A stretch of DNA of 64,000 bases from Mogibacterium sp. GTDB taxonomy: Bacteria; Bacillota; Clostridia; Peptostreptococcales; Anaerovoracaceae. This document shows positions 13,091 through 21,184 of this stretch, piece by piece. Below the pieces are notes generated by a model that was given only the letters and a program-made list of their open reading frames with translations, had not been told where the DNA came from and searched no databases. The stretch is from NCBI GenBank assembly GCA_012840975.1, contig DUVP01000032.1, forward strand, positions 1 to 64,000, given 5' to 3'. The first letter of the stretch is position 1. Each line of letters opens with the position of its first letter. A program made the translations under genes and the position numbers.

Positions 13091-13111
13091 ATGTAAAGCT
13101 TACTTTACGTA
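13091..13111 (-). repeat. 21-bp palindromic repeat, copy 3 (opposite orientation), overlapping the stop codon of the fusion gene
   Basis: atgtaaagcttactttacgta; RC tacgtaaagtaagctttacat. Confidence 0.75.
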
Positions 13112-15787
13112 TTTGTTCTCAAATACAAGGATACTTCCTCCAAAACCACCACCTTCCAGTTTAAGTGCTAAAGCTTCGGGCCGGTTTTTATACTCTTTCA
13201 AAGTCAGTGAAAGTGGATTTTCTTTAACTCCTTCAGGCAATATATTCTTTAATAATTTTTCCGAACTTAATCCTGATTCATTAACACATGCAAGAAACCT
13301 TTCAACTCGTCCCGCCTGCAGTGCGACTGCTCCTGCAAGAACTCTTTCGTTTTCATCATAAAAATGCTTTGCTCTATCTAACTGGAGCTTGGTAATCTCA
13401 CCATCCTCTACCTTTTTTTCAAGTATCGGGAGATTTTTATAAAATCTGTCTATATTTATATCCCCAAGCTTATTTATTCCCATGAGTTCGGCAACCTTAT
13501 ACATATCACCCGGTATCGATGCAAACTCCTCATCCATATTGTCATGACTTGAGTCTGTATTTACAATTTTCATTTCAAGTCCCACTGCATCAAAATCAAA
13601 GTCTATAAACTCATACTCCGGCTCTCTGCTACTGAAATCAAGAAGTGCCATTCGACCCAAACTTATGGCCAGCTGATCCTGCATTCCGCACGGTTTTCCA
13701 TAATATTCAGTTTCCGCCAACATGCTTATTTTTGCAATCTGTACAGGGTCAGCTTTGCTATCGTAATACCTGTCATTTATTATACGTGCAATCAAAACTT
13801 CAAAAGCTGCTGATGAACTCAAACCGCTCCCGACACCTATTTCAGACTTTATATGTGCATCAAAGCCATTCCTTTCACCTTCAATTTTTCCATAAAGCTC
13901 TGCAAACCCGGCAAGTATACCTTCAACCAAGGAAGCGGATGTGCCTTTTCCATGGTAATTTTCACCATCAAGAGAAACTTCGAACGGTTCAAATCCTTCC
14001 GATACTATCCTGATAACATCCCTGTAGTTATCTGCAACATATGCTCTTATCTTCTGTTCTGTCGGTGCAACCAGAACCCTGCCTCCCTGGTGATCGGTAT
14101 GATTTCCTATTATCTCTATCCTGCCCGTGCCAATATAGGCTTTGAATTTCTGCACTTTTCTGTCATATGTTAATAGCCCGTTAGTCTCATCTTCAACATC
14201 GGACAACTGTGTATATATCGCTGCGCAAAGTCCCTTATCTATAAGGGGTAGAATCTGCTCATCGTATAATTTGCCCATTCCTTCAAGCAATGCAGCCTCG
14301 TTCTCAAATTTTTTGTAACCGTAAATTTTTTCTTTATTAAAGCAATGATCGATCAACCGGCAGGCATAGCCTCCAAACTCCGAAAGCACGAGTGGCTTTT
14401 TACCTGCCGTGAGATTTACCGGCTTAAAATATATATGATGACTGTCTACATCGCTTTTCTTCTGCCTGAACCATCCTGACGTGCTGTCGATAAATCTCGT
14501 TAAATCCAATGCTCTAAGTCTGTCATATGCCTTATCAGCACAGAATTGCCCCCATCCTTCATTGAATATAGTCCAGTAGCAAATTGATGGATGATTATAT
14601 AGGTGTTTGACGGTTCTCTCCATGGATTCAAGAAATATTCGTCTGCTTTCAGGATTTGTATGTCTGTTCTTGTCGCTCAAAGATTTTATTCCTATTATCG
14701 GGATTACAGAATCCCTGATAAATGAATATTCGGAATTGTTCACCATGTCCTGAAACACGACCATGCCCAGACGATCACAATCGTAGTAAAACTGCTCAGG
14801 TTCAATTTTAATATGTTTCCTTAGCGTATTAAATCCCAACGATTTCATTGCGAGTATATCTCGTTCAAAGCATTCAGGTTCCGGAGGAGTGTATATACCT
14901 TCTTCCCAGTAGCCCTGATCAAGTACACCGTTAAAAAAGTAAGGCTCTTCGTTCAGGCAAAGCCGTTGATATCCTCCTATCTCCTTAATACTAAGTGTTC
15001 TGAGAGCAAAATAGGATTTTATTTTGTCATCGCCGGATTCTATGGTGAATTCATATAAGTGCGGATCTTCAGGAGTCCAAAGTTGCGGCTTTCTTATATC
15101 AATATGAATTGATGCACATAAAGATTCAGTCTCTGTTTCTTTTATAAGTTTATGCTTCTCTTCCAAAAGAGTTATTGTTCCGGTATCTATTCCATAGGCC
15201 CTTATTTCCACCCAGCTAAGTCCGACATCTATCTTAAGTGATTCTATATATGTTTGAGGAACAGCCTCAATCCAAACGGTTTGCCATATTCCGGAAACCG
15301 GCGTATACCACATACCTCCGTTTTCCCGCTTTTGTTTACCCCAAGGATATTTATGATCCAAATCATCAACAACCTCAACTTTGATCTTATTGTTTTTTCC
15401 CTCGATTAAAAAATCGGTTATATCAAAAGAGAATGGCAGATAACCGCCCTCATGAGTTCCTGCTATCTTATTGTTAATATAAACACTCGCTTTTTGATCG
15501 ACGGCACCGAAATGAAGTATTGTTCTCATTCCTTTCCAGTCATCAGGGATCATAAATTTGCGTTCATAAACCAGGAGTTCTCCCGACTCAATTCTTCTAC
15601 ATATGCCGGATAATTCGCTTTCCGGGCAAAATGGAACAAGGATCTTTTCATCCCTGTTAAATGTCCATTTTCCGTTCAGGCAAACCCATTTATCGCGAAC
15701 CAATTGAGGTCTCGGGTAAGCATTCCAGCTGCTATCCTTCTTGGTCTTATCTTCTTTACTGTTTTTATTGTTTTTACTGCTTTGCAT
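13100..15787 (-). CDS. Fusion: GH2-family glycosidase (beta-galactosidase/glucuronidase-like) with galactokinase (GHMP) domain
   Basis: 895 aa single ORF. N-terminus: GH2 sugar-binding and TIM barrel, TIFNEGWGQF acid/base, LVLSEFGGYA nucleophile, QLSDVEDETNGLLTYDRKV end motif. From ~14135 down: GRIEIIGNHTDHQGG, VGSGLSSSAAFEV, PCGMQDQ, LEGGGFGGS galactokinase motifs. Confidence 0.93.
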   Translation of the reverse strand: MQSSKNNKNSKEDKTKKDSSWNAYPRPQLVRDKWVCLNGKWTFNRDEKILVPFCPESELSGICRRIESGELLVYERKFMIPDDWKGMRTILHFGAVDQKASVYINNKIAGTHEGGYLPFSFDITDFLIEGKNNKIKVEVVDDLDHKYPWGKQKRENGGMWYTPVSGIWQTVWIEAVPQTYIESLKIDVGLSWVEIRAYGIDTGTITLLEEKHKLIKETETESLCASIHIDIRKPQLWTPEDPHLYEFTIESGDDKIKSYFALRTLSIKEIGGYQRLCLNEEPYFFNGVLDQGYWEEGIYTPPEPECFERDILAMKSLGFNTLRKHIKIEPEQFYYDCDRLGMVVFQDMVNNSEYSFIRDSVIPIIGIKSLSDKNRHTNPESRRIFLESMERTVKHLYNHPSICYWTIFNEGWGQFCADKAYDRLRALDLTRFIDSTSGWFRQKKSDVDSHHIYFKPVNLTAGKKPLVLSEFGGYACRLIDHCFNKEKIYGYKKFENEAALLEGMGKLYDEQILPLIDKGLCAAIYTQLSDVEDETNGLLTYDRKVQKFKAYIGTGRIEIIGNHTDHQGGRVLVAPTEQKIRAYVADNYRDVIRIVSEGFEPFEVSLDGENYHGKGTSASLVEGILAGFAELYGKIEGERNGFDAHIKSEIGVGSGLSSSAAFEVLIARIINDRYYDSKADPVQIAKISMLAETEYYGKPCGMQDQLAISLGRMALLDFSSREPEYEFIDFDFDAVGLEMKIVNTDSSHDNMDEEFASIPGDMYKVAELMGINKLGDINIDRFYKNLPILEKKVEDGEITKLQLDRAKHFYDENERVLAGAVALQAGRVERFLACVNESGLSSEKLLKNILPEGVKENPLSLTLKEYKNRPEALALKLEGGGFGGSILVFENKYVK

Positions 15788-19472: not shown

Positions 19473-20867
19473 TTATTGTTTTTCATCACGGGCTGCAGCA
19501 AGCATTAAGGCACATTCTATGCGTTTTTTGTGTAGTTCACAGCCAAGCTTATATACTTTGTTAATATCACCGTTTGAATGGTAATTATTTGCCGCACATC
19601 CTCCGGCACAATAGAGTTTTGCCCAGCAATTTTTACATTCGTCTCTTGTATATAAATTGTTACCTTTACTGAATATATCCACAATCTCAGGGTTTGTTAT
19701 TCCTTCATATATATTTCCAACTTTCATATCATCATCTCCGACAAATTGATGACACGGATATAAATCTCCTGCAGGTGTTACCGCAAAATATTCTGTTGCG
19801 ACTCCGCACCCCGCAACTCTCTTATATATACATGGGCCGCCTTCCATATCCACAGTATAGTGATAGAAATTAAAGCCCTCTCCTTTTCTTTCTCTTTCCA
19901 GCATCTCTTTTGCAAGTCTCTCATATTCCTCAACCAGTTTAGGAATATCCTCTTCATGCAAAGCATAAGGAGCACCGGGATCTGATACAACCGGCTCTAT
20001 AGATGTTTCCAAAAAACCCATATCTGCCATAGCTATAACATCAGCAGCAAAATCTTTATTATAGGCGGTATATGTTCCCCTCATATAATATTCCTTTGAC
20101 TTTCTCTCTGCTCCCTCCCTTGTTCTTGATTCCACAAGAGTCTTAAAATTGTCGATAATCCTATTATAAGTACCGTCTCCTGTCTTGGTTTTTCTCATCC
20201 TGTCATGGGTTGCACGACGTCCGTCCATACTGAGAACAACATTAGCCATCTCCTTATTTGTAAATTCAATTACATCTTCATCAATCAGGATGCCGTTTGT
20301 GGTTAATGTAAAATTAAATGTTTTATTATATTGCTTCTCAAGCTCTCTCCCATATTTTACAAGCTCCTTGCAGACATCCCAGTTAATCAAAGGTTCACCT
20401 CCGAAAAAATCTACTTCGAGATGTTTTCTTGTACCTGAATTCTCTACCAAATAATCCAGAGCTTTTTTTCCTACTTCAAGGCTCATTATCCCGCTTTTCC
20501 CGGAATAATCACCTTTACCTGCAAAACAATATTCACAGTCCATATTACATCCGTGTGCAACATGAAGACATATGGCTTTCAGAACAGATTGTTTTATCTT
20601 CAAGTCATCAGCTACTTCCTCGTACGAATCATCTGACCAAAGGAGTCCTTCTCTTTTTAGTGTAAGTATATCTGCAAAAGTTTCACGAATCTCTTTCTCG
20701 TTAATACCATAGTTCTTCGATATCTTTAAAATTGCCTCTTCATCTTGAACAAATGTTTTATCCATCATTTCTATAAGATCATAAGCAAGTTCATCCACAA
20801 CATGAACCGAAGCACTATTGACATCTACCACTATATTGTAACCGTTAAGTTTATATTGATGTATCAT
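19473..20867 (-). CDS. scfB: SCIFF thioether peptide maturase (radical SAM/SPASM)
   Basis: CNMDCEYC radical SAM motif; SPASM cysteines (CHQF..., CKNCWAKLYCAGGCAANNY...C); adjacent to the SCIFF precursor. Confidence 0.95.
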   Translation of the reverse strand: MIHQYKLNGYNIVVDVNSASVHVVDELAYDLIEMMDKTFVQDEEAILKISKNYGINEKEIRETFADILTLKREGLLWSDDSYEEVADDLKIKQSVLKAICLHVAHGCNMDCEYCFAGKGDYSGKSGIMSLEVGKKALDYLVENSGTRKHLEVDFFGGEPLINWDVCKELVKYGRELEKQYNKTFNFTLTTNGILIDEDVIEFTNKEMANVVLSMDGRRATHDRMRKTKTGDGTYNRIIDNFKTLVESRTREGAERKSKEYYMRGTYTAYNKDFAADVIAMADMGFLETSIEPVVSDPGAPYALHEEDIPKLVEEYERLAKEMLERERKGEGFNFYHYTVDMEGGPCIYKRVAGCGVATEYFAVTPAGDLYPCHQFVGDDDMKVGNIYEGITNPEIVDIFSKGNNLYTRDECKNCWAKLYCAGGCAANNYHSNGDINKVYKLGCELHKKRIECALMLAAARDEKQ

Positions 20868-20916
20868 TATCTACCTCTGTAACGATATAAAAATCTTTCA
20901 ATCTTTTGACAAGAAA

Positions 20917-20943
20917 AAACGCTGCTTCAACAGCAGCGTTTTC
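20917..20943 (-). terminator. Hairpin between SCIFF precursor and maturase (terminator/attenuator)
   Basis: aaaacgctgcttcaacagcagcgtttt, followed on the minus strand by TTCTTG. Confidence 0.6.
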
Positions 20944-20952
20944 TAAGCATTA

Positions 20953-21102
20953 CTATTTATCTTTACGCTGTTCACAGTGCTGATTAGCAACGCTGCATGA
21001 AGTTTTACTTGCAGACTGGCATGATGTCTGACATTCTCCGCAACCGCCTGTTTTGTGTGATTTTGCCATATCTCTTGTTGTAATAGTCTTAATTCTTTTC
21101 AT
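20953..21102 (-). CDS. scfA: SCIFF ranthipeptide precursor (49 aa), five-Cys variant
   Basis: Manual translation: MKRIKTITTRDMAKSHKTGGCGECQTSCQSASKTSCSVANQHCEQRKDK; RBS AGGAGG upstream. Below the ORF track size cutoff. Confidence 0.95.
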   Translation of the reverse strand: MKRIKTITTRDMAKSHKTGGCGECQTSCQSASKTSCSVANQHCEQRKDK

Positions 21103-21184
21103 TGGTCTTCCTCCTTATATTGTCTATTCGTATTATCAAAGATCATAACCGATTTTTAACCCAAACTATGTGCTAGGTTATCAT

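Follow-up and report, generated by a model that had tools for sequence, protein, structure and literature searches.

The minus strand of the 64,000-nucleotide stretch of Mogibacterium sp. DNA analysed here (the window) codes for a SCIFF-family precursor peptide of 49 aa, scfA (20953..21102), identified by its matches to TIGR03973 and PF13165 and by its translation, MKRIKTITTRDMAKSHKTGGCGECQTSCQSASKTSCSVANQHCEQRKDK. It scores 77.7 bits against TIGR03973 (cut-off 50) and 76.6 bits against PF13165, the Pfam SCIFF model (cut-off 27), and its gene adjoins that of a TIGR03974 maturase, scfB, which lies 85 bases downstream. A Shine-Dalgarno-like AAGGAGGAA (21108..21116, minus strand) sits just 5′ of the scfA ATG, and a promoter scan of the locus gave no match above chance. 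The core has five cysteines, at positions 21, 24, 28, 36, and 43, rather than the six in about 45 residues that characterize SCIFFs, with the fourth of the usual six replaced by serine. Reading the sequence directly, codon 32 is AGT (21007..21009, minus strand), specifying Ser32 where CteA and Tte1186a have their thioether donor, Cys32, and codon 37 is AGC (20992..20994, minus strand), specifying Ser37 where classical SCIFFs have Thr37; the original prediction of a SCIFF precursor with serine at both positions is thus correct. Thr34 (ACT, 21001..21003, minus strand), kept in all of the classes described below and reported as the CteA acceptor in a co-expression study (PMC8326336), is present, and the class alignment identifies Thr26 (ACA, 21025..21027, minus strand) as the other core threonine. 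Because there are not six cysteines and there is no Cys32 donor, we file scfA, as judged by its sequence, as a five-cysteine variant homologous to SCIFFs and set apart from the CteA-type SCIFF ranthipeptides.

The scfB product (19473..20867, minus strand; 464 aa) is a radical SAM/SPASM SCIFF maturase, as assigned from TIGR03974, homology to CteB, and its predicted fold. It scores 682.6 bits against TIGR03974 (cut-off 425) and matches CteB (5wgg) with an E value of 7e-158, and by this homology its N-terminal domain is RRE-type; the rSAM_PapB profile yields only 265.5 bits, below its cut-off of 340. The CX3CX2C radical SAM motif (Cys107/111/114) and the SPASM cysteines are present, and every cysteine aligning with the CteB cluster motifs is kept (Cys107/111/114, 346, 354, 372, 411, 414, 420, 424, and 443), bearing out the earlier impression that the maturase motifs are intact. 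The structure model (pLDDT 91.1) has the RRE, radical SAM, and SPASM folds, and Foldseek aligns it to CteB 5wgg with a TM of 0.91, an rmsd of 1.9, and 48% identity by structure alignment.

Between the two genes there is a terminator-like hairpin (20915..20943, minus strand) with a 12-bp stem followed by a U run and a fold z of -3.07. Hairpins of a similar kind occur in the scfA-scfB gap at 75/102 Ser32, 41/71 Thr37, and 14/40 Gly37 loci (the classes are defined below), and given their presence at 75 of the Ser32 loci, partial read-through from scfA into scfB may be the norm. The hairpin could possibly set the ratio of precursor to enzyme. Elsewhere in the window, an 895-residue open reading frame at 13100-15787 (minus strand) joins a truncated glycoside hydrolase family 2 to a galactokinase without its usual N-terminus (Pfam), reflecting either a gene fusion, a deletion, or an assembly join.

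The genome, 80.7% complete, is in draft form (37 contigs), and its draft state raises the prospect of a sequencing or assembly error at codon 32. However, a SCIFF match is present in 43 of the 47 genomes of the genus, a codon pattern search finds Ser32 in all 43 of these, and each of the 42 distinct genus SCIFF DNA sequences that we read codes for it. Recurrence of the same residue in 43 independent genus genomes and in isolate genomes excludes chance and sequencing error, and we give an error at this codon virtually no credence. Across the genus, the core has a pN of 0.0016 and a pS of 0.41, and the leader has a pN of 0.14; with synonymous sites varying freely and replacements nearly absent, selection holds the core, Ser32 included. 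Ser32 is fixed in the genus and is under very strong purifying selection. A second, six-cysteine scfA in the same genome had been named as a finding that would count against the original prediction; none was found in the 80.7% complete draft, nor any second SCIFF of another kind, and no locus among those surveyed holds both the Ser32 and six-cysteine types.

The remaining four genus genomes, one of them 94% complete, lack both precursor and maturase, and this absence, together with loss of the published donor, could be taken to mean that the peptide is uncrosslinked (whether reduced, disulfide-linked, or a metal binder), with the maturase kept for another substrate or on its way out. We consider this very improbable, as a relict would drift, contrary to the low core pN, precursor and maturase are lost together, and the catalytic and cluster residues of the Ser32-class maturases are fully conserved. 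In one genome (G007:C131:16207-17569), a maturase beside a Ser32 SCIFF is split between two frames with an internal TGA, and is either a broken gene or an assembly error.

The original prediction described a single odd precursor, a view that does not survive the wider survey, in which the locus is a member of an old, widespread SCIFF subfamily and no one-genome oddity. Within the family, which the named relatives Mogibacterium, Mobilibacterium, Baileyella, and Eubacterium brachy identify as Anaerovoracaceae, Ser32 is found in 80 of the 351 genomes and in 18 of the 92 genera, and it occurs in at least two families outside of it, represented by genomes G1138 (same class) and G602 (another class); among the matches listed, contigs named Oscillospiraceae, Ruminococcaceae, or Eubacterium also have Ser32. 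Seven named isolate genomes code for it: E. brachy ATCC 33089, M. timonense, B. intestinalis, M. kristiansenii, Gallibacter intestinalis, Alterileibacterium massiliense, and Clostridium aminobutyricum DSM 2634. In a phylum-wide scan of 399 genomes, it was found in G000 and G602 only, a third pattern match, in G760, having been rejected as not a SCIFF. Although frequent in certain lineages, Ser32 is rare overall. All of the Ser32 codons seen are AGY, which was forced by the search pattern in most collections and holds in the unconstrained scans too. One genome, G484, carries two separate Ser32 SCIFF/maturase pairs (L313 and L314) that differ in sequence. We found no description of Ser32 SCIFFs in the openly accessible literature, which is not proof of their absence from it, and two papers make no distinction among SCIFFs.

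Residues 32 and 37 sort SCIFFs into three or more classes, and every class has a maturase signature to go with it. Of the 370 SCIFF reads that we classified, which include repeat reads of some genomes, 97 are Cys32/Thr37 (the Thr37 class), 42 are Cys32/Gly37 (the Gly37 class), 223 are Ser32/Ser37 and seven Ser32/Ala37 (the Ser32 class), and one is Cys32/Ala37; Ser32 is never found together with Thr37 among the 370. Many functional SCIFFs with serine at these positions had been proposed as evidence against the original prediction, and the 230 Ser32 reads, some from repeated genomes, provide this in number, and in number alone. In the Ser32 class, Cys21, 24, 28, 36, and 43, Thr26, and Thr34 are each 100% conserved. 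The five cysteines other than Cys32 are invariant in every class, and Thr26 is at 100% in the Ser32 and Gly37 classes and 85% in the Thr37 class. Thr34 is the sole published crosslink residue that never varies in the sequences read, an invariance that is unbiased in the HMM-retrieved sets only, as most survey DNA patterns required Lys33-Thr34 and divergence there would escape the survey outside of the HMM-based sets. The leader motif TR(N/D)(L/M) is common to the Ser32 and Gly37 classes (37/42 reads in the latter) and, bar one read, is missing from the Thr37 class. We also asked if an extra cysteine replaces Cys32, and rejected this: Cys46 is present in 22% and Cys13 in 27/102 of Ser32 peptides, Cys13 is equally common in the Gly37 class, and the genus is without both.

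The Gly37 class is large, with SCIFF loci in about fifteen families (for example, L337-L353). Three of its precursors, L270 (G166), L343 (G935), and L350 (G1076), are naturally double-core: a single open reading frame runs through two full leader-core units in tandem, with no intervening stop. The single Cys32/Ala37 SCIFF, L354 (G1139, family f186), has no maturase open reading frame that we could find in the stretch fetched.

Maturase trees group the Ser32 enzymes with those of the Gly37 class in one clade that excludes the Thr37 class (SH-aLRT 100, and 100/99 in a second tree). Free trees require two changes to Ser32, because two termite-gut sequences (L150 and L141) branch next to the Gly37 clade; monophyly of Ser32 is not rejected (p-AU 0.61) and had a likelihood above that of the quick tree, and we read Ser32 as having arisen once or twice, long ago. 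The idea that residues 32 and 37 became coupled repeatedly and independently is rejected, since the tree needs one or two origins and hence few events, and the association of Ser32 with Val356 of the maturase, described next, likewise rests on few independent events. Single families hold more than one class (f1, f13, f22, f45, f167, f179, and f187, for example), and the SCIFF pair has therefore probably moved between lineages.

To find what sets the enzymes apart, we compared 102 Ser32, 37 Gly37, and 71 Thr37 maturases over about 460 columns. Column 356 is the only one that splits Ser32 from Cys32 maturases with zero overlap, the next best overlapping by 13%: it is Val in 102/102 Ser32 maturases, Ser (92%) or Ala (8%) in the Gly37 class, and Ala (92%), Ser (6%), or Cys (3%) in the Thr37 class. 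In scfB, the Val356 codon (19800..19802, minus strand) is two residues past the first ligand of auxiliary cluster I (Aux I), Cys354, as placed by the column comparison and an alignment with anSMEcpe, and its CteB counterpart is S/A344. A small residue (Ser or Ala) next to the open Aux I site is thus missing from scfB; this trait was identified in the present comparison and is not a published criterion. The anSME Aux I ligands are Cys255, 261, 276, and 330 (PMC6231123), and in the scfB-anSMEcpe alignment Cys354 corresponds to Cys255 and Val356 to Thr260, adjoining Cys261; we infer the exact register from a gapped loop alignment of about 22% identity. The Aux I cluster of CteB has an open site, at which a peptide cysteine is bound in the crystal (PMC6231123; PMC8326336). 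With Cys354 equivalent to the ligand Cys255 and the open CteB site binding a peptide cysteine, the residue that changed with the substrate would, at this register, border the proposed donor-thiolate site on Aux I.

That the sole fully discriminating maturase residue borders the open Aux I site would also fit a modification made without an Aux I donor thiolate, in which Val356 marks a closed thiolate site and the Ser32 maturase forms, for example, a C-O or C-C bond, a dehydro residue, or a modification at Ser32; related SPASM enzymes show varied chemistry (PMC8326336). We think this unlikely, as complete retention of the other five core cysteines in the Ser32 class suggests that thiols still matter, and the fold and cluster ligands are close to those of CteB.

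The original prediction took the SCIFF thioether to join Cys32 and Thr37, and published work supports this in part. Two in vitro studies reportedly place it there in Tte1186a and CteA, although a later co-expression study of CteA gives Cys32-Thr34 instead (PMC8326336; PMC8172795), and Thr34, unlike Thr37, is kept here. The linkage reported for CteA is at the Thr gamma carbon. As there is no thiol at residue 32, neither Cys32-Thr37 nor Cys32-Thr34 can form, and the published Cys32 thioether is unable to form in Ser32 peptides. In the Gly37 class, residue 37 has no side chain, so a Cys32-Thr37-type linkage at a non-alpha carbon is impossible there. Serine has no gamma carbon, and Ser32 and Ser37 would therefore be poor acceptors for CteA-type gamma-thioether chemistry.

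Because serine lacks the gamma carbon at which CteA is linked, we propose instead that the Ser32 maturase is active and would link one of the remaining conserved cysteines to a conserved threonine through its side chain, Thr26 and Thr34 being the only core threonines left in the class. Candidate pairs would be Cys36 or Cys28 with Thr34, or Cys24 with Thr26; in Cys24-Gln-Thr26 the Cys-X-Thr spacing is that seen for Cys32-Lys-Thr34 in CteA, and the related enzyme PapB tolerates flexible Cys-to-acceptor spacings of 0 to 6 residues (PMC9413430). From these patterns we put a candidate crosslink between another cysteine and Thr34 or Thr26 at about even odds. The exact donor/acceptor pair is a guess, and the conservation of Thr34 and Thr26 may reflect a role in recognition and not one as acceptors.

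Only a single thioether has been mapped, despite conservation of all six cysteines, and the engagement of the other cysteines has been posed as a question (PMC8326336), such that Cys32 could serve in one of several crosslinks, the others having been missed in vitro; the Ser32 subfamily would then have dropped one staple and kept the rest, as the five cysteines invariant in every class might suggest. We find this quite unlikely, as the published CteA and Tte1186a products carry a single crosslink (PMC8326336; PMC8172795), and, taken alone, it accounts for neither Val356 nor the loss of Thr37.

The reading that we favor, with a little more belief than doubt, is of a working precursor/maturase pair in which Ser has taken the place of Cys32, and Ser or Ala that of Thr37, the maturase has changed along with them, and a Cys-Thr linkage has putatively been relocated. 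The suggestion in the original prediction that the peptide is crosslinked elsewhere or forms a different bridge is still the likeliest guess, now with evidence in its favor. More tentatively, and with doubt prevailing, we suggest that the Ser32 maturases may have switched chemistry, with no loading of Cys32 on Aux I and either another cysteine joined to Thr26 or Thr34 or a kind of bond new to SCIFFs; loss of the donor cysteine would then have accompanied the Ser/Ala-to-Val change at the open Aux I site. If such a switch did occur, the conservation of Cys32, Thr34, and Thr37 across the three classes would help to tell which of the published crosslinks occurs naturally. The class split is in effect a natural test, both of Thr34 versus Thr37 as the real acceptor and of a donor cysteine on the open Aux I iron.

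Among known systems, CteA/Tte1186a (TIGR03973) with CteB/Tte1186 (TIGR03974) have the same precursor-maturase order as the Mogibacterium locus, and both components are homologous. The locus peptide has the core motif CGECQTSCQSA-KTSC-VANQ-C in common with CteA/Tte1186a but has five and not six core cysteines, no Cys32 donor, and Ser37 instead of Thr37; the locus also departs from the CteA/CteB type in having the TR(N/D)(L/M) leader motif and Val356 beside the open Aux I site. The Gly37 class has the same leader motif, has similarly lost Thr37, has invariant Thr26 and Thr34, and is the sister group in the maturase tree; unlike the locus, it keeps Cys32, has at Gly37 no side-chain acceptor, and has a maturase with Ser (92%) or Ala at 356. 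Freyrasin, the PapA/PapB ranthipeptide, likewise involves a radical SAM/SPASM maturase, non-alpha thioethers, and a Cys-rich precursor, although its core is unrelated and is built of Cys-X3-Asp/Glu motifs. Finally, anSMEcpe (4k36-4k39) has the SPASM domain in common with scfB and is the second closest fold to the scfB model, but in it Cys261, which adjoins Val356 in the alignment, completes the ligation of Aux I, and its substrates are sulfatases, not SCIFFs.
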